Part shown: in pieces, positions 24,123-33,751 of the stretch | Layout: each line of letters starts with the position of its first letter | How positions within the stretch are numbered: the first letter of the stretch is position 1 | Source: Phascolarctobacterium sp. | GTDB taxonomy: Bacteria; Bacillota; Negativicutes; Acidaminococcales; Acidaminococcaceae | Reading direction: 5' to 3' | Assembly: GCA_021201965.1 (NCBI GenBank) | Contig: JAJQDY010000015.1 | Coordinates: 1 to 34,402, forward strand | Length of the DNA: 34,402 nt | Notes under the pieces: generated by a model | What the model was told of the DNA's origin: nothing | Database searches by the model: none | Seen by the model: the letters and a program-made list of their open reading frames with translations, nothing else | Program-made: the position numbers and the translations under genes

Positions 24123-24151
24123 TTGACGTTTATATTTAAAAAGGCTAAAAT
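24123..24151 (+). promoter_or_regulatory. promoter of the aromatic amino acid operon
   Basis: TTGACG (24123-24128) and TAAAAT (24146-24151) with exactly 17 bases between. The expected start is near 24158, giving a leader of about 300 nucleotides before the first enzyme gene. An inverted repeat TCTCCA/TGGAGA (24153-24158, 24167-24172) spans the start region and might be an operator. Confidence 0.7.
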
Positions 24152-24206
24152 GTCTCCAGACCTGCTTGGAGAAATACAGGTGGGGAATATTTTGCAGGTG
24201 AACTTA

Positions 24207-24353
24207 ATGGACTCTAGTACGAGAAAAACTGTAGCTGAATATGGATTTTATTATGTACCGGGCTTTAGCTTTTATTTTAGCGCCGGTTATTTTGGATGGC
24301 AAAGTTCAGTTAGCAGTTTGTTCGTAAATAGATGTCTTTTAGACGGTATGTAA
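24207..24353 (+). CDS. aromatic-rich leader peptide of the aro operon
   Basis: A 48-codon ORF with ATG 24207 and a good ribosome site AGGTG(A) at 24196-24201. Residues 12-31 contain 11 aromatic residues: Y12, F14, Y15, Y16, F20, F22, Y23, F24, Y28, F29 and W31. It lies between a strong promoter and an intrinsic terminator, upstream of DAHP synthase. This is the architecture of leader-peptide attenuation: shortage of charged Phe/Tyr(/Trp) tRNA would stall the ribosome and allow read-through. The frame is open further upstream to 24123, but that part overlaps the promoter. It is long for a leader (48 residues), so a functional small protein cannot be excluded. Confidence 0.75.
   Translation: MDSSTRKTVAEYGFYYVPGFSFYFSAGYFGWQSSVSSLFVNRCLLDGM
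24257..24288 (+). promoter_or_regulatory. possible 1:2 and antiterminator segments of the attenuator
   Basis: ACCGG (24257-24261) can pair with CCGGT (24283-24287). The same region GCCGGTT (24282-24288) can instead pair with AACGGGC (24380-24386), the 5' arm of the terminator, with one G-G mismatch in seven. The two pairings are mutually exclusive, and the first arm lies within the aromatic codons. The stems are short, so this is a model only. Confidence 0.35.
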
Positions 24354-24378
24354 TCTGTCGTTTATAAAATCGTTACAG

Positions 24379-24412
24379 AAACGGGCTTCTCTTACGAGCG
24401 CCCGTTTTTTTA
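24379..24412 (+). terminator. intrinsic terminator (attenuator) before aroF
   Basis: AAACGGGC (24379-24386) pairs perfectly with GCCCGTTT (24400-24407), with an inner CTC/GAG stem around TTAC, followed by a run of T to about 24411. It sits 25 bases after the leader-peptide stop and about 44 bases before the aroF start. A preceding TCTGT/ACAGA stem (about 24354-24379) adds structure. Confidence 0.88.
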
Positions 24413-24455: not shown

Positions 24456-25469
24456 ATGGTAATTGTATTCAAACCAGGAGCACCAGAGGAAGCTAAAACA
24501 AGGGTAAAGAATAACCTTAAAAATCAGGGCTTCCAAATCAATGAAATTAATGGCGTAAATATGACAATTTTCGGTATCATTGGTGATACTAGCAGTCTTG
24601 ATATCAACTTACTGCGCGTCGATGATTTCGTGGAAAAAGTCATGCGCGTACAGGAACCTTTTAAACGCGCCAACCGCATGTTTCATCCGGAGGACAGTAT
24701 CATTGATGTGGATGGTATAAAATTCGGCGGGCAAAAAATTCAGGTTATTGCGGGACCTTGTTCCGTGGAAAGCATGGAACAGGTTACCAATGTGGCAAAG
24801 TCCGTCAGGGAGTCAGGCGCAACGCTTTTGCGTGGTGGTGCATTTAAACCGCGCACTTCACCTTATTCTTTCCAGGGACTGAAAGAACTGGGCATAGATT
24901 ACCTGAAGGCGGCAAAAGCTGAAACCGGATTACCTATTGTTACTGAAATAATGTCGGCAGACAAAATCGACCGCTTTGTGGAAGACGTGGATCTGATTCA
25001 GGTGGGTGCACGCAATATGCAGAACTTCGAATTACTGAAGGAGCTCGGCAAGACCAGTAAACCAGTTCTTTTAAAACGCGGGTTATCTGCGACAATAGAA
25101 GAATGGATTATGTCAGCTGAATATATTATGGCTGGCGGTAATGAAAACGTAATTTTGTGTGAGCGCGGAATACGTACATTTGAACATTATACACGTAACA
25201 CATTAGATTTAAGTGCTATTCCTGTAATAAAAAAACTTAGCTATCTTCCGATAATTGTAGATCCAAGTCATGCGGCCGGTATGTGGTGGATGGTAGAACC
25301 ATTGGCAAAAGCTGCCGTAGCTGCAGGAGCAGACGGCCTTTTGATTGAAGTGCATAATGATCCGGAACACGCATTATCTGATGGAGCACAATCCTTGAAA
25401 CCGGAACGCTTTGAGAAGCTAATGAAAGAATTACATGGAATTGCAAAAATTATAGGACGCTATTTGTAA
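24456..25469 (+). CDS. aroF: 3-deoxy-7-phosphoheptulonate (DAHP) synthase, type I-beta
   Basis: A 337-aa enzyme that condenses phosphoenolpyruvate and erythrose 4-phosphate, the first step of aromatic synthesis. The N-terminal 70-80 residues form a ferredoxin-like regulatory domain as in Thermotoga maritima DAHPS, the domain linked to Phe/Tyr feedback there. The barrel has GPCSVES (100-106), LRGGAFKPRTSPYSFQG (125-141), QVGARNMQNFELLKELG, LLKRG and IVDPSHAAG. All four metal ligands are present at the same numbers as in the T. maritima enzyme: C102, H272, E298, D309. ATG 24456 has AGGAGAGG upstream. It is the first enzyme gene after the attenuator. Confidence 0.96.
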   Translation: MVIVFKPGAPEEAKTRVKNNLKNQGFQINEINGVNMTIFGIIGDTSSLDINLLRVDDFVEKVMRVQEPFKRANRMFHPEDSIIDVDGIKFGGQKIQVIAGPCSVESMEQVTNVAKSVRESGATLLRGGAFKPRTSPYSFQGLKELGIDYLKAAKAETGLPIVTEIMSADKIDRFVEDVDLIQVGARNMQNFELLKELGKTSKPVLLKRGLSATIEEWIMSAEYIMAGGNENVILCERGIRTFEHYTRNTLDLSAIPVIKKLSYLPIIVDPSHAAGMWWMVEPLAKAAVAAGADGLLIEVHNDPEHALSDGAQSLKPERFEKLMKELHGIAKIIGRYL

Positions 25470-25522
25470 ATTAAAATTAATATTTAAAGTAGCATGCAGG
25501 CTGCTCAGAGGGGGTGGTTTCC

Positions 25523-26380
25523 TTGGAAAGTAATTTTAAAAGCGGCGTCAGCGAGAAAATTGATACAGTAGTTCCGGCCGAAACAGCAGGATCATTTAAG
25601 TATGTAGGGCGCATGCTCCGCCTAGAGGGAAGTGTTGTTAATGCCGGGGAAATTGAAATAGGAGGCCGTAAACTTCATATCATTGTAAGTGCTATGTCTT
25701 TAGAAAGTGCCGTTCAGGCGGTTGATTTGGCACATACCATTAAATCTGCCGGTGCGTCGATGCTCAGCAACAGGGAGTTTAAACCAATTCCTTATATAAA
25801 TCCTGATCAGATGGAGAGAGAGACGGCATGGTTCTTAGATGCTGGGAAAGCAATAGGAATACCATTTATAGCTGAAGTAACAGCTATGAAAAATATTAAA
25901 AAACTGGCAAGACAAGCAGATATCCTGCAGGTTAGCGGGCGTGATATGCAGAATTTTGAATTGCTTAAAGCATTAGGAAAAGAAAATCGGCCGGTAATTT
26001 TAAAGCGGGGATCAGGAGCGACAATAGAAGAATGGATTTTGGCAGCCGAATATATTATGGCTGGCGGCAATAAAAATGTAGTTTTGTGTGCTGGTGCTAT
26101 AGAAAGTTTTGAGAAATATACAGACAACATGACCATGGATTTGAGCGCCATAATAGCTGTGAAAATGTTAAGTCATCTTCCGGTAATTATGGATCTCAGA
26201 CAGGATGTGGAAAAGCTATGGATGATTAGTTCCTTAGCTAAAGCTGCCATAGCTGCAGGTGCTGACGGATTGATGCTGGAAGTAGGCAATGATTCGGGGC
26301 AGGTACTTACAGGAAAGGGATTCCTGGAACTTATGAATGAACTTAGAACAATTGCTGACAGCATGGGCAGGGAAATGTAG
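25523..26380 (+). CDS. degenerate DAHP synthase paralogue, probable pseudoenzyme
   Basis: A 285-aa intact ORF clearly homologous along its length to the preceding DAHP synthase (shared DMQNFELLKALGK, ATIEEWILAAEYIMAGGNKN, LAKAAIAAGADGL) but stripped of catalytic residues. GPCSVES has become SAMSLES (C102 to M58). LRGGAFKPRTSP has become LSNREFKPIPYI, losing both arginines. DPSHAAG has become DLRQDVE (H272 to Q227), and the D309 position is not Asp. Only the Glu ligand (E253) remains. The N-terminal ferredoxin-like domain is replaced by about 25 unrelated residues. TTG 25523 is chosen because GAGGGGGTG (25508-25516) fits it; GTG 25514 is an alternative. It may be a regulatory partner of AroF or have a new function. 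No frameshift or stop is seen, which suggests selection. Confidence 0.85.
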   Translation: MESNFKSGVSEKIDTVVPAETAGSFKYVGRMLRLEGSVVNAGEIEIGGRKLHIIVSAMSLESAVQAVDLAHTIKSAGASMLSNREFKPIPYINPDQMERETAWFLDAGKAIGIPFIAEVTAMKNIKKLARQADILQVSGRDMQNFELLKALGKENRPVILKRGSGATIEEWILAAEYIMAGGNKNVVLCAGAIESFEKYTDNMTMDLSAIIAVKMLSHLPVIMDLRQDVEKLWMISSLAKAAIAAGADGLMLEVGNDSGQVLTGKGFLELMNELRTIADSMGREM

Positions 26381-26473
26381 GAAAATGTCTGTAGGTATGA
26401 TAAAATAACAGTAGGGAACTTGATAAGTTCTAAGCTTATGTAGTATGGAAGAATGGCTGGAGAGGTGATTTTT

Positions 26474-27346
26474 TTGACAACTGGTTTTAAAAGCACCGAC
26501 TGGAAAAATCTTAATTTTGCAATAGTTGGGTTAGGGTTGATTGGCGGATCCTTTGCCAAAGCTTTGCGGCGTTTACATGTGCGGAGCATTATTGGAATTG
26601 ATATTGATGATAATGTCTTAACTGCGGCGAAGAATCAGGGAATTATAGATGTGCCGTTAAAAGTTGCCGGAGAAGAAATAAGACAGGCAGATGTGGTCAT
26701 TTGCGCTTTATATCCTGAAGCCGTTATCAAATTTGTGAAAGATAGTATTGGCTTTTTGAAAGAAGGAGTTTTATTAACTGATGTTTCTGGTATAAAAAAG
26801 AATTTACCTTTTGAAGTACAGTTATTACTGCGTCCAGGAATGGAATTCATTTCTGGGCATCCTATGGCAGGACGCCAGGGCAGTGGCTTGGATATGTCTG
26901 ATGGAACAATCTTTCAAGGAGCTAATTACATAGTGATACCTGAAAAACATAACAGCGAAGAGGTAATTAAATGGCTTGAGACCCTTGCCATGGCTTTGGG
27001 CTGTAAGCATACAACAAGAATTTCTCCTGAAGAGCACGACAGTATTATTGCTTATACCAGTAATTTGCCACATATAGCGGCAGTTGCGTTGATAGACAGC
27101 GATTCTTTCAGTGAGAAAACTAAATATTTTATAGCGGGCAGCTTCAGGGATGGGACCAGGGTAGCGGATATTAACGAAGAACTATGGAGCAGCTTATTCT
27201 TGGCTAACAAGGACCGAGTGGCCGACGAAGTAGATAAATACATGGAACAGCTGCAACTCTGGAGCATTGCTTTGAGGGCAGGCGATATAGATTCCTTGAA
27301 AGATTTCATGAGAAAAGCAGCTACAAGAAGAAAGGAACTTTACTAA
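26474..27346 (+). CDS. tyrA: prephenate dehydrogenase
   Basis: A 290-aa NAD(P)-dependent enzyme of the tyrosine branch. It has a Rossmann start IVGLGLIGGSFAKAL (about residues 17-31), LTDVSGIKK, the GHPMAGRQGSG segment and EEHDSIIAYTSNLPHI with the catalytic-region histidines. There is no C-terminal ACT domain. The start is placed at TTG 26474 because AGAGGTGAT lies five to six bases before it. The in-frame ATG 26453 has no good site. The last base of its stop is the first base of aroB (TAATG), so the genes are coupled. An arogenate preference cannot be ruled out. Confidence 0.92.
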   Translation: MTTGFKSTDWKNLNFAIVGLGLIGGSFAKALRRLHVRSIIGIDIDDNVLTAAKNQGIIDVPLKVAGEEIRQADVVICALYPEAVIKFVKDSIGFLKEGVLLTDVSGIKKNLPFEVQLLLRPGMEFISGHPMAGRQGSGLDMSDGTIFQGANYIVIPEKHNSEEVIKWLETLAMALGCKHTTRISPEEHDSIIAYTSNLPHIAAVALIDSDSFSEKTKYFIAGSFRDGTRVADINEELWSSLFLANKDRVADEVDKYMEQLQLWSIALRAGDIDSLKDFMRKAATRRKELY

Positions 27347-28410
27347 TGCAGACCATTCATGTTGATTTGGGAAGCCATGCCTATGATGTAGAAATTGGTA
27401 ATGGAATTCTGTCACAGGTAGGAGCAAAACTTAGGGTATTGTTGCCTGGTGTCTGCAAGGTTGCCATCATAAGCGACAGTAATGTTGCTCCGTTATATGC
27501 TGCCCAATTACATGACAGTCTTGCGGTCGCTGGCTTACCGTCTGAATTAATTGTAATAGAGGCTGGCGAACAAAGTAAGAATATGCAGGTATTAAGCGAC
27601 GTTTTAGAAAAAATTGCCGTGGCTGGACTTAGTCGCAGCGATGTGCTAGTAACTTTGGGCGGCGGCGTAGTCGGCGATTTGGGAGGATTTGCAGCGGCTA
27701 GTTATATGCGCGGTATTGCTTTTGTACAGGTGCCAACTTCCTTACTAGCGCAGATAGACAGCAGCGTGGGCGGTAAAGTAGCAGTGGATTTAAAAAGCGG
27801 TAAAAATCTGGCAGGGGCCTTTTATCAGCCCAAAGCCGTGTTTATTGATACAGAACTTTTGCAATCTCTGCCGTTGCGTTTTTTACATGACGGGCTGGCA
27901 GAGGCCATAAAATATGGATGTATTAAAGACAAGGATTTGTTTATCAAGTTGGCAGGATATGTTGATGGCGCAGAGTTGCTGGATGATGCGGAATATATAG
28001 TTGCTCGCTGCTGTGAAATCAAAGCGCGCATAATTGAGCAGGATGAGTTTGACATGGGATTAAGGGCACTGCTAAATTTCGGTCATACCATAGGACATGC
28101 CGTCGAGCAGTATTACAGTTATGGTTATTATACCCATGGGGAAGGTGTTGCCATAGGCATGTATCAACTTACAAGACGTACGGAAGAAATGGGGCTTACG
28201 CTAATAGGTACAGCAGCCAAAATTGCAGAGGTTCTGCAAAAATATAATCTGCCAATGGAGGCAGATGTGGAAAAAAGAGTTTTGCTGGCCACTATGGAAA
28301 GGGATAAGAAGAAAAATGGCAACAGCATTACTCTGGTTATTTTGAATGATCTTGGTAGCGGAAAACTGCAGAAAATATACTGGCAGGATATAACGGAGTA
28401 TTTGGGGTAG
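27346..28410 (+). CDS. aroB: 3-dehydroquinate synthase
   Basis: A 354-aa NAD- and metal-dependent enzyme for the second step of the shikimate pathway. The NAD-binding GGGVVGDLGGF lies at residues 105-115, followed by QVPTSLLAQIDSSVGGKVAVDL (read in parts), the metal/active-site segments DGLAEAIKYG and LLNFGHTIGHAVE with its histidines, and the HGEGVAIGM motif. The length is standard. The ATG overlaps the tyrA stop by one base, and aroA starts four bases after its stop. Confidence 0.97.
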   Translation: MQTIHVDLGSHAYDVEIGNGILSQVGAKLRVLLPGVCKVAIISDSNVAPLYAAQLHDSLAVAGLPSELIVIEAGEQSKNMQVLSDVLEKIAVAGLSRSDVLVTLGGGVVGDLGGFAAASYMRGIAFVQVPTSLLAQIDSSVGGKVAVDLKSGKNLAGAFYQPKAVFIDTELLQSLPLRFLHDGLAEAIKYGCIKDKDLFIKLAGYVDGAELLDDAEYIVARCCEIKARIIEQDEFDMGLRALLNFGHTIGHAVEQYYSYGYYTHGEGVAIGMYQLTRRTEEMGLTLIGTAAKIAEVLQKYNLPMEADVEKRVLLATMERDKKKNGNSITLVILNDLGSGKLQKIYWQDITEYLG

Positions 28411-28414
28411 AAGA

Positions 28415-29710
28415 ATGAAAAAGATCCGCATCATTCCGGCTAAATTAAAGGGTACAATATGCGTGCCGTCTTCCAAAAGCATGGGACATAGGGAAATAAT
28501 CTGTGCCGGCTTAGCAGCAGGTATGGGCATTATTGATAATATTAGCATGTCCAAGGACATCGAAGCAACTATCCGTTGCTTGCGGGCTCTGGGTGTACAG
28601 GTTGATGACATGGTAGGAAAGATTCCCGGGCGCAGTGCACTGAAAATAACTGGCAGTGGCAGATTATATAAGGCGGAAGATGTAGCTGATTGCGGTGAAT
28701 CAGGTTCAACATTGCGTTTTTTTATTCCTCTAGGAATGCTGCTGAATGAGCCGTTTACCTTCAGCGGACACGGTAAGCTGGTAAGTCGCCCTTTGCAGGC
28801 GTATTACGACATTTTTGACAGTCAAGGACTGGAATATTCTTTAAAGGACGGTCAGCTACCTCTGACGATTAACGGGAGGTTAAAGGCAGGTACTTATAAA
28901 TTACCGGGAAATGTGAGTAGCCAGTTTGTCAGTGGCCTGCTCTTTGCACTGCCACTACTGGAAGGAGACTCAATAATTGAGATTACATCACATTTGGAGT
29001 CATCAGCTTATGTGGATATGACCCTGAGCTGTTTGAATAAGTATGGTGTTAAGGTAAAAAATAACGGACACCGCAGTTATGAGATAAAAGGCGGACAGCA
29101 CTATATACCACAAGATAGCTATGTGGAAGGTGACTGGTCACAGGCGGCATTTTGGCTGGTAGGTGGAAGTATGGGAGATTCCGTTACCTGCAAGGGCATG
29201 GATTTTAAGTCTTTGCAAGGTGATAAGGCTATAGTGGAAATTATGCAGTGCATGGAAAGTCAATTTACATTTGATGTGAGTGGAATTACTGCTTGCGGAT
29301 CTCACACCAAAGCTGCTATAATTGATGGCTCTGGATGTCCTGATATTATTCCCGTATTGGCAACCTTAGCGGCGGTAAGCGAAGGAACTACGGAAATAAT
29401 TAATGCCGGTCGGTTGCGAATCAAGGAATGTGACAGACTTTCGGCCACGACTGACGGACTGAACAGGCTCGGTGGGAAAGTGACAGAATTACAGGATGGC
29501 CTGCACATAGAAGGTTGCCCTAGTGGGTTGTCTGGTGGGGTTGAAGTGGATGCGTGGAATGATCACCGCATTGCGATGAGTCTGGCCATAGTGGCACAAA
29601 AATGCAAGGAACCGATAATTCTGACCGGGGGAGACAGTGTGCAGAAGTCGTATCCGGATTTCTGGAAGGATTATATAGCAACAGGCGGAAGAATAGAGGT
29701 GCTGGCGTGA
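28415..29710 (+). CDS. aroA: 5-enolpyruvylshikimate-3-phosphate synthase
   Basis: A 431-aa enzyme that joins phosphoenolpyruvate to shikimate 3-phosphate. The two-domain signatures are present: SSKSMGHREI near the N-terminus (Lys of SKS and the following Arg), GESGSTLRFFIPL near 92-104, GNVSSQFVSGLLFALPLL, DWSQAAFWL, RLRIKECDRL (the RxKExDR motif) and DHRIAMSLAI. The serine/glycine pattern GESGSTLR differs from class I NAGTAMRPL, so it resembles class II-like enzymes. The ribosome site is weak (about four bases after aroB), implying coupling. It ends in a GTGA overlap with aroC. Confidence 0.96.
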   Translation: MKKIRIIPAKLKGTICVPSSKSMGHREIICAGLAAGMGIIDNISMSKDIEATIRCLRALGVQVDDMVGKIPGRSALKITGSGRLYKAEDVADCGESGSTLRFFIPLGMLLNEPFTFSGHGKLVSRPLQAYYDIFDSQGLEYSLKDGQLPLTINGRLKAGTYKLPGNVSSQFVSGLLFALPLLEGDSIIEITSHLESSAYVDMTLSCLNKYGVKVKNNGHRSYEIKGGQHYIPQDSYVEGDWSQAAFWLVGGSMGDSVTCKGMDFKSLQGDKAIVEIMQCMESQFTFDVSGITACGSHTKAAIIDGSGCPDIIPVLATLAAVSEGTTEIINAGRLRIKECDRLSATTDGLNRLGGKVTELQDGLHIEGCPSGLSGGVEVDAWNDHRIAMSLAIVAQKCKEPIILTGGDSVQKSYPDFWKDYIATGGRIEVLA

Positions 29711-30801
29711 GCGGTATTTATGGAATTAACGTAAAAATGAGTATATACGGTGAATCCCACGGCACATCAATAGGAATGATTGTTGACGGATTGCCTCCAG
29801 GACTAAAACTTGACCTTGCTGCAATAGAAATGGAAATGTTGCGTCGTGCACCAGGGCAGAATCAATTGTCGACCCAGCGCAGAGAAAATGACAGTTTTGC
29901 TATCCAGAGTGGTTTTTTCGATGGATATACCACGGGTACTCCGCTATGTGTCGTGATAAAAAACAGTGACCAGCATTCAAAAGATTATAGCATTTTAAAA
30001 GACAAAATGCGGCCTGGGCATGCGGATTATGCCGGGTATGTTAAATATAAAGGCTATAATGACTATCGCGGTGGAGGGCATTTTTCCGGTAGGCTTACGG
30101 CGCCACTGGTATTTATTGGAGCAGTGGCCAAACAGGTGCTGAAGGAATATGGTATTCTGGTTGGCGCACATATTTTCAGTATCGGCAATATTAAAGATAA
30201 AGCATTTAATCAATTAGGTGTTGGCGATAAATTGTTTAAGGAACTGCAAAGGAAAGCCTTTTGCGTTATAGATGACGTAATTGGCAACAGGATGCAGGAG
30301 AATATCCTGAAAGCAAAAGAAGCCATGAACAGCGTTGGCGGTATTGTTGAATGCATGGTATTGCATATTCCAGCAGGAATTGGAGCTCCATATTTTGATT
30401 CACTGGAGAGCCATCTGAGCCATGCATTATTTTCCGTGCCAGCGGTTAAAGCAGTGGAATTTGGTGATGGATTCGATATAACAAGGCTTACCGGAGCCGA
30501 AGCTAATGATGAGATGAATTATGTAAATGGAGAAGTGCAGACGCTTACTAACCATAATGGTGGGATTACAGGCGGCATTACCAACGGAATGCCTGTTGTT
30601 TTTAGGGTTGGTATTAAGCCGACACCGTCTATTGGAAGGGAGCAGCACACAGTAAGTATTGGCGGCCAATGCAACACTACTCTTGCAGTAAGTGGAAGAC
30701 ATGATCCCTGCATTGTTCCGCGAGCCGTACCTGCTATTGAGGCTGTGACTGCTTGGATAGTATTGGACTTGCTTTTGGAAGCTAAGAAATTGGAGCGTTA
30801 A
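29707..30801 (+). CDS. aroC: chorismate synthase
   Basis: A 364-aa FMN-dependent enzyme that makes chorismate from EPSP. Conserved parts include GESHGTSIG near residue 15, RRAPGQNQLSTQRRE, YRGGGHFSGRLTAPLV, MNYVNGEVQTLTNHNGGITGGI (in parts) and the C-terminal HDPCIVPRAVPA. The frame is open back into aroA, but GTG 29707 (GTGA overlap with the aroA stop) has GAGGTG at 29696-29701 and gives the standard N-terminus. The pathway order aroB-aroA-aroC fits the genes on either side. Confidence 0.96.
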   Translation: MSGIYGINVKMSIYGESHGTSIGMIVDGLPPGLKLDLAAIEMEMLRRAPGQNQLSTQRRENDSFAIQSGFFDGYTTGTPLCVVIKNSDQHSKDYSILKDKMRPGHADYAGYVKYKGYNDYRGGGHFSGRLTAPLVFIGAVAKQVLKEYGILVGAHIFSIGNIKDKAFNQLGVGDKLFKELQRKAFCVIDDVIGNRMQENILKAKEAMNSVGGIVECMVLHIPAGIGAPYFDSLESHLSHALFSVPAVKAVEFGDGFDITRLTGAEANDEMNYVNGEVQTLTNHNGGITGGITNGMPVVFRVGIKPTPSIGREQHTVSIGGQCNTTLAVSGRHDPCIVPRAVPAIEAVTAWIVLDLLLEAKKLER

Positions 30802-30802
30802 A

Positions 30803-31921
30803 ATGTGGAGGCTGGATTTGGATAATATTCGTGAAGAAATCGACAAACTGGATAAACAATTGGCGAAGATTTTGGAAGCTAGGCTGACACTGGTTTCGAA
30901 AGTAGCAGTTTACAAAAAAGAACGTGGTATAAGCGTTAAAGATGCAAAACGCGAAGAAATGGTTATCAATCGCGTAATTAGCCAATTGGAAAACGAAGAA
31001 TTTATTCCGGCAGTTAAAAATATTATGCACAATATTATTGATGTTGCTTGCGAGATGGAAGAAGGGGTATTGAAAAAACAAAATCAGTACACTCTGAAGA
31101 TTGCCTGTTTTGGACCTCCAGGTTCTTTTACCCACCAGGCCCTGGAAGATTATTTTGCAGGACAGGATTATAAACGGTATTATTACAATCTTTCCGAAGA
31201 AGTAATTGCAGCTGTTAGCAGTGGTGAACTTGATTATGGAGTATTGCCTATAGAAAATTCCTCAACTGGCGGAATTACTGAAGTTTACGATCTTTTGCGC
31301 CATTATGAATGCAGTATTGTAGGCGAGCGTTGCATAAAAATAGAACAGAACCTTTTGGCTTGTCCTGGTGCTACTTTGAATACTGTAATAAAAGTTTATT
31401 CTCATCCTCAGGGATTTGCCCAAAGCAAGGGTTTCTTTAGAGATCATCCGCATATGGAGCAGATACCTTATTTCAGTACTTCGAAAAGTGCTGAAACGGT
31501 AGCTGAGAAAAAAGATATCACCCTTGCAGCCGTAGGCGGGAAAAAAGCTGCGGAACTATATGGATTGAAAGTACTGGCGGAAAATATTAATTACAATTGC
31601 AATAATTTTACACGTTTTGTTATTATAGGTAAAGAACAAGAAATAATAATAGGTGCGGATAAAATTACATTGGTCTTGGCTGTAAAGCATGAAGCAGGAT
31701 CTTTGTATAAAGTATTAGGCTATTTTAATCACGGCGGCCTGAATTTGATGAATTTGGAATCTAGGCCAATGGATGGCAAGTCATGGGAGTATTTTTTCCA
31801 TATTGATTTAATGGGTAATTTGGCTGATCCTGCAGTACGTGATGCTTTGGAAGATATTCAGCTAAATTGTACTTTTTTCAAAATTCTGGGCAATTACCGT
31901 GCCGATTGTCAAAAGGAATGA
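30803..31921 (+). CDS. pheA: bifunctional chorismate mutase / prephenate dehydratase (P-protein)
   Basis: A 372-aa two-enzyme protein for phenylalanine. Residues 1-85 are an AroQ-type chorismate mutase helix bundle (IREEIDKLDKQLAKILEAR, then VAVYKKERG). The dehydratase follows with CFGPPGSFTHQA, VLPIENSSTGGI and the TRF motif (NNFTRFVII). A C-terminal ACT domain with NLESRP is the usual phenylalanine feedback site. ATG 30803 comes one base after the aroC stop, with GGAG about eight bases upstream. An aromatic feedback loop therefore exists at both enzyme (ACT) and, if the leader is real, transcript level. Confidence 0.96.
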   Translation: MWRLDLDNIREEIDKLDKQLAKILEARLTLVSKVAVYKKERGISVKDAKREEMVINRVISQLENEEFIPAVKNIMHNIIDVACEMEEGVLKKQNQYTLKIACFGPPGSFTHQALEDYFAGQDYKRYYYNLSEEVIAAVSSGELDYGVLPIENSSTGGITEVYDLLRHYECSIVGERCIKIEQNLLACPGATLNTVIKVYSHPQGFAQSKGFFRDHPHMEQIPYFSTSKSAETVAEKKDITLAAVGGKKAAELYGLKVLAENINYNCNNFTRFVIIGKEQEIIIGADKITLVLAVKHEAGSLYKVLGYFNHGGLNLMNLESRPMDGKSWEYFFHIDLMGNLADPAVRDALEDIQLNCTFFKILGNYRADCQKE

Positions 31922-31927
31922 TCTGAT

Positions 31928-32737
31928 ATGCGGTATGGTTTATTAGGTGGTAAATTAGTACACAGCCTTTCTCCGCAAATACATGAAATATTTTTTAATT
32001 ATACTGGAATAAATGGAAGTTATGAACTGCTTGAATCATCTGCAGAAAATCTACCAGTAATTATGAGACAGGTTAAGGAAAAAATGAATGGCTGTAATGT
32101 TACCATTCCCCATAAAATAGCTGTAATGTCATTTCTGGATGATATTGCACCAGAAGCACTTGCCATTGGCGCTGTTAATACCATTGTCATACGAAATGGA
32201 AAGACAACGGGCTATAATACAGATTATTTTGGGTTTGGACGGATGCTGGAATATAACGGAATAAAAATTCCCGGCAAGAAAGTAGCAGTGCTTGGCAGTG
32301 GAGGTGCGGCCAGAGCAGTAATTAAATATTTGGCGGACAAGAATGTAGGAGAACTTTATCTGGTTACTCGTACTCCGGAAAACATTGATAATCATTTTAA
32401 GGAAATGGCACCTTCTTGCAATGTCATTGATTATACACAGCTGGAGAAAATAAATGGCAACGTGCTGATTAACTGTACACCTGTTGGCATGTATCCGAGG
32501 ATGGATGCCAGTCCTGTAAAGAGAAAAGTTGTGGAAGCTTTTGGTGTAGCGGTAGACATCATATATAATCCTGCACAAACGATTCTTTTGCAGCAGGCTG
32601 CTGCTGGCAAGAAAACTGTTAACGGACTTTTCATGTTAGTAGCGCAGGCAGTCGCAGCACAGGAGATCTGGCAGGGAAGACAATATGACAGCAGTCTGAT
32701 ACTAAAAATTATGAAGGATTTAGAGCGGAATATATGA
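31928..32737 (+). CDS. aroE: shikimate dehydrogenase
   Basis: A 269-aa NADP-dependent enzyme that reduces 3-dehydroshikimate. The N-terminal shikimate pocket KLVHSLSPQIHE, the NVTIPHK motif with its catalytic lysine, and GAVNTIV are present. The Rossmann GSGGAARAV lies near residues 123-131, and the C-terminal NGLFMLVAQAVAAQEIW segment is typical. ATG 31928 is six bases after pheA. The end overlaps aroK by four bases (ATGA). Quinate dehydrogenase is the only near alternative, and the operon argues against it. Confidence 0.96.
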   Translation: MRYGLLGGKLVHSLSPQIHEIFFNYTGINGSYELLESSAENLPVIMRQVKEKMNGCNVTIPHKIAVMSFLDDIAPEALAIGAVNTIVIRNGKTTGYNTDYFGFGRMLEYNGIKIPGKKVAVLGSGGAARAVIKYLADKNVGELYLVTRTPENIDNHFKEMAPSCNVIDYTQLEKINGNVLINCTPVGMYPRMDASPVKRKVVEAFGVAVDIIYNPAQTILLQQAAAGKKTVNGLFMLVAQAVAAQEIWQGRQYDSSLILKIMKDLERNI

Positions 32738-33234
32738 AAAACATTATTTTGATTGGAATGCCAGGTTGTGGAAAAACCACTTTTGGAAGACTGCTCAGCA
32801 AAGAACTGAACCGAGATTTCCACGATTCTGATGAAGTATTGGAAATGAGGGAGAGAAGGACTATCAAAGACTTTTTTGCCGAAAGCGAAGAAGCATTCAG
32901 GCAGGCGGAGACACGTACGCTTAAATATCTGGCTGGCCTTGATGGCGTAATAATAGCTACAGGCGGCGGTGCCGTGAAAAATCAGGAGAATATGGAAATA
33001 CTTGGGGAAAATGGGGTTATTATTTTTATAGACCGTAAGCCGGAAAATATTGTTGCCTGTATTGATGGTACTGTACGGCCGTTGCTTGCAGAGGATAAAA
33101 TGAAAGTATATGATGTATATGAACAGCGTATCAAACTATACCAGAAATACGCCGATTATATTGTAGGCAATAACGGCAGGACAGCGGAAACTATGGATAG
33201 ACTGCTGAAATATGTCAGGGGGACCGAACAATGA
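32734..33234 (+). CDS. aroK: shikimate kinase
   Basis: A 166-aa NMP-kinase-fold enzyme that phosphorylates shikimate. It has Walker A GMPGCGKTT at residues 8-16, DSDEVLE with the shikimate-binding aspartate, FRQAETRTL in the substrate lid, and ATGGGAVKN near residue 79. The length is typical. The start overlaps aroE and the end overlaps aroQ by four bases each, so aroE-aroK-aroQ is a translationally chained block. Confidence 0.96.
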   Translation: MKNIILIGMPGCGKTTFGRLLSKELNRDFHDSDEVLEMRERRTIKDFFAESEEAFRQAETRTLKYLAGLDGVIIATGGGAVKNQENMEILGENGVIIFIDRKPENIVACIDGTVRPLLAEDKMKVYDVYEQRIKLYQKYADYIVGNNGRTAETMDRLLKYVRGTEQ

Positions 33235-33668
33235 AAAAAATTTTGGTGTTAGACGGACCCAATATCAATCTTTTGGGTCTGCGTGAGAAAAATATTTATG
33301 GTAAACGTGATTTTGCCAGTCTCTGTACTTATGTAAAAGAGGAAGCGGCAAAACTGGGACTGCAGGTTGAAATAATGCAGAGCAATCATGAGGGGGAAAT
33401 TGTGGATGCAATACAGAAAGCTTACGGAGTATATGACGGTATAGTCATAAATCCTGCGGCACTTACGCATTACAGCATTGCCGTTCTGGATGCTTTAAAG
33501 GCCGTAAGTATTCCTGTAATTGAAGTGCATTTAAGCAATATCTATGCCCGTGAAGAATTTCGGCATAAGTCTGTTACGGCTTCAGCATGTATCGGACAGA
33601 TTTGTGGATTTGGTTTTACTGGTTACGCACTGGCACTGAGAGCTATGGTTGAATATGAAGCAGAGTGA
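33231..33668 (+). CDS. aroQ: 3-dehydroquinate dehydratase, type II
   Basis: A 145-aa flavodoxin-like dodecameric dehydroquinase. It has DGPNINLLG at 8-16, R18, the catalytic-loop tyrosine Y23 in NIYG, SNHEGEIVD, INPAALTHYSIAVLDAL (active-site Asn and His), and VHLSNIYAREEFRHKS. With this gene all seven steps from erythrose 4-phosphate to chorismate are encoded in one run: aroF, aroB, aroQ, aroE, aroK, aroA, aroC. It is the last gene, and a terminator follows after about 47 bases. Confidence 0.97.
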   Translation: MKKILVLDGPNINLLGLREKNIYGKRDFASLCTYVKEEAAKLGLQVEIMQSNHEGEIVDAIQKAYGVYDGIVINPAALTHYSIAVLDALKAVSIPVIEVHLSNIYAREEFRHKSVTASACIGQICGFGFTGYALALRAMVEYEAE

Positions 33669-33714: not shown

Positions 33715-33751
33715 AATTTGGCGGATATTAAAAATCCGCCAAATTTTATTA
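33715..33751 (+). terminator. terminator of the aromatic amino acid operon
   Basis: AATTTGGCGGAT (33715-33726) pairs perfectly with ATCCGCCAAATT (33734-33745) around a seven-base loop, followed by TTATTATG. It lies 47 bases after the aroQ stop. Confidence 0.85.

Follow-up and report, generated by a model that had tools for sequence, protein, structure and literature searches.

A conserved aromatic leader peptide and a predicted attenuator upstream of the chorismate, phenylalanine and tyrosine operon of Phascolarctobacterium

Genes and features of the aro locus

The window, by which we mean the whole 34,402-nt stretch of Phascolarctobacterium sp. DNA that was analysed, carries an operon of aromatic amino acid genes on the forward strand. 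The first gene, aroF (24456-25469; PF00793, PF18152), encodes a DAHP synthase with a ferredoxin-like domain and is followed by a degenerate DAHP synthase paralog (25514-26380; PF00793). Then come tyrA, encoding prephenate dehydrogenase (26453-27346; PF02153, PF20463), aroB, 3-dehydroquinate synthase (27346-28410; PF01761, PF24621), aroA, EPSP synthase (28415-29710; PF00275), aroC, chorismate synthase (29728-30801; PF01264), pheA, chorismate mutase-prephenate dehydratase (30803-31921; PF01817, PF00800), aroE, shikimate dehydrogenase (31928-32737; PF08501), aroK, shikimate kinase (32734-33234; PF01202), and aroQ, a type II dehydroquinase (33231-33668; PF01220). The operon thus encodes the whole pathway to chorismate together with the Phe and Tyr branches, without Trp genes. 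The original prediction, which had called it a complete aromatic operon, is right for chorismate, Phe and Tyr and wrong for Trp, whose genes lie elsewhere in the genome. Just 3' of aroQ, an inverted repeat, GGCGGATATTAAAAATCCGCC and then AAATTTTA (33720-33749), is a likely end of the operon.

The paralog at 25514-26380 is 43-44% identical to aroF over the matched part. It has no N-terminal ferredoxin-like domain, and the AGPCSVE and DPSHAAG motifs of aroF read VSAMSLE and DLRQDVE. It looks catalytically dead, and a role as a regulatory partner is conceivable. In a sister genome (G001, locus L003), aroF is likewise followed by such a gene.

The region 5' of aroF has the parts that one would look for in an attenuator. 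A promoter-like site, TTGACG-17-TAAAAT (24123-24151), matches the consensus at 10 of 12 positions, in keeping with the near-consensus promoter first proposed. The Shine-Dalgarno (SD) sequence AGGTGA (24196-24201) precedes a leader ORF of 48 codons, MDSSTRKTVAEYGFYYVPGFSFYFSAGYFGWQSSVSSLFVNRCLLDGM, that runs from an ATG at 24207 to a stop codon at 24351-24353 (24207-24353 overall) and has homologs in relatives. Codons 12 to 31 (24240-24299), hereafter the sensing block, include 11 Phe, Tyr or Trp codons, in the order Y, F, Y, Y, F, F, Y, F, Y, F, W; the claim of an ORF with its own ribosome site and 11 aromatic residues is borne out codon by codon. None of the other frames among the 925 in the window has so dense an aromatic cluster, and 11 aromatic codons in 20 were reached in only 4 of 3,000 dinucleotide shuffles of the intergenic region. 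Downstream, as had been noted, an intrinsic terminator, GAAACGGGCTTCTCTTACGAGCGCCCGTTTT plus a U tract (24378-24412), separates the leader from the aroF start at 24456. Its hairpin (24378-24408) has a stem of about -15 kcal/mol and is followed by the U run.

Selection on the leader codons and on hairpin P1

In the alignment of relatives that the original prediction had proposed, the aromatic codon cluster is conserved 5' of aroF. The leader therefore has the short ORF rich in codons for the pathway's own products that attenuation calls for, with translation itself predicted. A comparable promoter site lies within 140 nt 5' of 99 of 111 homologous leaders, versus 13 of 111 in shuffles, and an SD-like motif precedes 69 of the 74 that start with ATG, versus 8 in the control. 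Two homologous columns, 22 and 23, are always Phe or Tyr (111/111 and 114/114, respectively); both synonymous codons are in use, and Leu, Ser and Cys never appear.

Columns 22 and 23 fall in the unpaired loop of a hairpin that we call P1. The leader RNA is more stably folded than shuffled sequences (z -3.7), and the core of P1 (24257-24287), with sensing codons inside it, forms the apical part of a longer hairpin, hairpin 1. The pairing of 24257-24261 with 24283-24287 noticed at the outset is real and belongs to P1. Across the homologs, 87.4% of P1 cells are paired, versus 22-49% when the partner is slid by one to three columns, and double changes occur in 48 cells, versus 14 in shuffles. The P1 loop is 6 or 9 nt long in 79 of 90 well-paired cases, so its length is mostly a multiple of three. 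Together, columns 22 and 23, the P1 loop lengths and the SD-like and promoter-like sites argue that the leader ORF is translated and that its Phe and Tyr codons are under selection.

The same evidence bears on whether the RNA might act by itself, as a translation-independent structured element or riboswitch in which the ORF is incidental. P1 is a conserved RNA element, as are the terminator and the antiterminator strand AT1 described below, which is what such an element would have. However, the SD and start codon are retained, and neither loop lengths in steps of three nor loop columns confined to Phe and Tyr would be expected of an incidental frame; moreover, Rfam gave no match at the gathering threshold and no relevant one at E<=5. 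We regard this explanation as extremely improbable.

A different possibility is an arrest peptide of the TnaC/Trp type, in which the nascent aromatic peptide would bind free Phe or Tyr, or the exit tunnel, and stall in a sequence-specific manner. The homologous leaders do share a strongly conserved peptide core, S-x-G-Y-F, non-aromatic residues included. However, Phe and Tyr exchange freely at the same columns while the aromatic codons are retained, and base pairing in P1, with its compensatory changes, accounts for the conserved codons for S, W, Q, G and A (in S-W/Q-G and S-A-G). The sign is also wrong for a biosynthetic operon: a stall brought on by plentiful amino acid would leave AT1 free, and synthesis would go up when product is ample. 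An arrest peptide is therefore very unlikely.

The terminator and its antiterminator

The comparison with relatives extends to the terminator, which is kept at the equivalent place in 97 of 109 homologous leaders. Its competitor is a segment 3' of P1. In the window, AT1, TCGTAAATAGATGTCTT (24322-24338), can pair at -10.6 kcal/mol with AT2 (24384-24397), which lies inside the 5' arm and loop of the terminator. In 103 leaders, AT1 starts a median of 13 nt (IQR 11-14) after the aromatic match. It lies wholly 3' of the leader stop codon in 10 of these 103, with its position still fixed, so what is conserved is the RNA and not the peptide.

The sequence of AT1 is lineage-specific, and the partner strand varies along with it. 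In the Acidaminococcaceae, CGUAANAGANGCC pairs with GGCUCUUUUACG; in Clostridium and Pelosinus, AAUGAGU with ACUCAUU; in Tepidanaerobacter, AGUGAGGUU with AAUCUCACU; and in some other Negativicutes, AGAACCU with AGGUUCU. We ran an exchange test with 77 distinct terminators: AT1 and AT2 strands from the same leader paired at -10.5 kcal/mol, versus -8.1 kcal/mol for foreign combinations (z -9.0; 0 of 20,000 permutations), co-variation being judged here by exchange and pair counts and not by a covariance model. A fixed position and co-variation with the terminator arm are what a mutually exclusive antiterminator should display.

The antiterminator originally drawn was a different one, 24282-24288 (the 3' arm of P1) with 24380-24386. 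These strands can form a duplex of -9.0 kcal/mol that includes a mismatch, but in the exchange test the P1 3' arm does not co-vary with the terminator arm (z 0.2), and we rejected this pairing; the co-varying segment lies about 35 nt further 3'. The 5' arm of P1 likewise gave no co-variation with the terminator arm in that test (z 0.4). Compensatory change, the test put forward for the stems, is thus found in P1 and in AT1:AT2 and is missing from the antiterminator originally drawn.

In an unrestricted duplex search, AT1 of the window is not the top site (z 0.75), and the best site is non-homologous; our assignment of AT1 in the window comes from homology and from the stalled-state fold. The AT1:AT2 pairing is weak in some leaders, for instance L147 and L022. 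Three relatives missed by the peptide profile (L011, L012 and L023) retain, by eye, AT1-like and terminator sequences.

Folding states and a model for regulation

Regulatory states were modelled by folding the nascent, ribosome-blocked RNA up to the terminator loop. For the window, the probability of AT1:AT2 pairing was 0.00 without a ribosome, 0.50-0.85 with a ribosome at codons 12-31, and 0.00 with a ribosome at the stop codon. The medians over 103 leaders were 0.07, 0.83 and 0.00, respectively, and in some leaders the antiterminator stayed highly probable even with no ribosome (mean 0.315). These values count register-specific pairs, since a looser measure of any AT2 pairing did not separate the states. 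In the ribosome-free prediction, long hairpin 1 (24209-24337; -43.7 kcal/mol) conceals AT1. The RNA folding suggested at the outset thus gives what the logic of attenuation expects, an antiterminator in the stalled state and a masked AT1 at the stop codon. When the whole terminator of the window is present at equilibrium, the terminator is favoured in every state (antiterminator probability 0.02 or less), so the switch requires that the antiterminator form first, and the order of synthesis must decide. The same order is held to be decisive in known attenuators.

The explanation that we consider very probable is that ribosome-mediated attenuation governs transcription of the chorismate/Phe/Tyr operon, with charged tRNA-Phe and tRNA-Tyr as the signals sensed. 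With Phe and Tyr in good supply, the ribosome would pass codons 12-31, reach the stop codon and cover AT1 (24322-24338), allowing the terminator (24378-24412) to form. When either is scarce, the ribosome would stall within the aromatic block and open hairpin 1. AT1, left free, would capture AT2 (24384-24397) during its emergence and so keep the terminator from forming, and RNA polymerase would enter aroF. Without translation, hairpin 1 is predicted to conceal AT1, leading to termination. Computation shows the ORF, P1, the AT1:AT2 co-variation, the terminator, the conserved context and the predicted states; from these we infer that the ribosome stalls, which way the operon responds, which amino acids are sensed and in what kinetic order the structures form. 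On comparative evidence, the observed leader is real and the central idea of leader-peptide attenuation of the aro operon, which that evidence strongly supports, is right.

Which amino acids are sensed

All three aromatic amino acids had been named as signals, and the leader in the window does contain one Trp codon. On average, aroF leaders contain 6.3 Phe, 4.3 Tyr and 1.2 Trp codons. None is without Phe or without Tyr codons, whereas Trp codons are absent from 24 of 114 leaders overall. Moreover, trpE and the trp genes following it in this genome are preceded by a T-box whose specifier, read by eye from the alignment, is UGG; the genome has 11 T-box matches outside the aro leader. Optional Trp codons and a UGG T-box before trp point to Phe and Tyr as the likely signals, and to Trp as a doubtful one, minor at most. 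Sensing of all three through an antiterminator built on the P1 3' arm, which has both the codon counts and the missing co-variation against it, is accordingly very unlikely; we retain the Phe/Tyr attenuator that works through AT1.

Single examples suggest that codon content is tuned to the downstream gene. One leader before tyrA (L149) has six Tyr and no Phe codons, and one before pheA (L168) has nine Phe and two Tyr codons. Other tyrA and aroA leaders are mixed, which makes tuning a lead and not a rule.

In the trp operon (L208, G000:C55:15900-23500; also L206), trpC is seemingly shortened and trpA has an in-frame stop, either by decay or by assembly error.

Distribution of the leader

The nearest named relatives of the window are Phascolarctobacterium and other Acidaminococcaceae, and nearly all genomes of the family with a complete region carry an aromatic leader 5' of their first DAHP synthase gene. 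Other genera with the leader include Megasphaera, Pelosinus, Lucifera, Clostridium and Tepidanaerobacter. The peptide profile matched 80 of 200 Negativicutes genomes and 17 of 398 genomes sampled across the phylum, 14 of the latter outside the Negativicutes. All identified downstream genes belong to the shikimate, Phe or Tyr pathways. Most are aroF; the others are aroA (L115, L147, L157), tyrA (L145, L149), aroK (Pelosinus), aroE (L164), pheA (L168) and aroB (L192). For a few weak profile matches, such as the second copy in L159, L190 and L195, no aromatic gene was identified 3' of the leader.

Mapped onto a tree of DAHP synthases, leaders cluster strongly (9 changes needed versus 26 in shuffles) and are spread over both Negativicutes and Clostridia, which fits old inheritance with losses, or transfers. 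It is reasonably likely that these leaders form one homologous attenuator family across the Negativicutes and many Clostridia, defining a shikimate/Phe/Tyr regulon with codons tuned to each operon (Tyr before tyrA, Phe before pheA) beside trp T-boxes in the same cells.

Some genomes have two leaders before different aromatic genes: L143 and L144 (Pelosinus) and L147 (aroF with aroK; aroF with aroA). In genome G039 (L162/L209), three tandem DAHP synthase matches each have a leader 5'; at least one of the matches is broken by stops, and two of the leaders share the same listed peptide.

Relation to known regulators

In its mode of working the aro leader resembles the trp, phe and his attenuators. 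As in the enterobacterial pheL/pheA and trpL systems, a stall on product codons would select between antiterminator and terminator. In contrast to those, the sensing codons here are apical in hairpin 1, and the antiterminator strand is at the base of the same hairpin, about 13 nt 3' of the codon block. The Rfam models Phe_leader and Trp_leader gave no match to the aro leader at the gathering threshold, and none was listed up to E=5.

T-boxes are a usual kind of amino acid sensor 5' of biosynthetic operons in Firmicutes. A T-box in the aro leader was considered and rejected, the RF00230 covariance model (Stem I, AGAG element, T-box sequence) giving no match; unlike T-box leaders, the aro leader would sense by translation, in a genome where T-boxes are present, before the trp operon among other places. 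Peptide-based attenuation within the Firmicutes has a precedent in the histidine leaders of bacilli, which replace T-boxes and differ in amino acid, in genes (hisS/hisZ) and in peptide (PMC2965389).

A precedent, by description, is AroR of Corynebacterium glutamicum, an aromatic leader peptide 5' of the DAHP synthase gene aroF for which a Phe-Tyr-Phe motif is reported (PMC11802643, PMC4046766). There, Phe limitation is described as causing ribosome stalling and increased transcription of the operon (Neshat et al. 2014, as given in PMC11802643), and Tyr availability is reported to have no effect (PMC11802643). AroR differs in coming from an Actinobacterium and in having only Phe-Tyr-Phe described.

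Our search, which covered the open literature, found no description of the aro leader family, which from its sequences seems to be a new and broadly conserved set of a known type of regulator. Leader-peptide attenuation is thinly documented in Firmicutes, where T-boxes are expected to be the main amino acid sensors. That a conserved family precedes as many as two or three aromatic operons in one genome suggests that sensing by the ribosome can be old and stable in the phylum. With paralogs that include at least one Tyr-only and one Phe-rich leader, the family lends itself to a natural test of how specificity depends on codon content, and through the leader the control of aromatic amino acid supply becomes testable in gut commensals such as Phascolarctobacterium.

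One reported element may be related. uORFC-13-1 is a predicted uORF 5' of aroF with at least one Phe codon, a promoter, an RBS and an adjacent terminator, and all 24 sequences reported for it come from Acholeplasma or environmental DNA; the text gives neither an antiterminator nor a peptide family (PMC8632094). It shares with the aro leader the position 5' of aroF, the promoter, the RBS and the terminator, a comparison made by text description.

Three metagenome-assembled genomes labelled Acholeplasmataceae (L042, L050, L051) are placed by the DAHP synthase tree, with strong support, inside the Acidaminococcaceae, so the two sets of leaders may overlap. Their labels are therefore probably wrong, which bears on the reported host range of uORFC-13-1.
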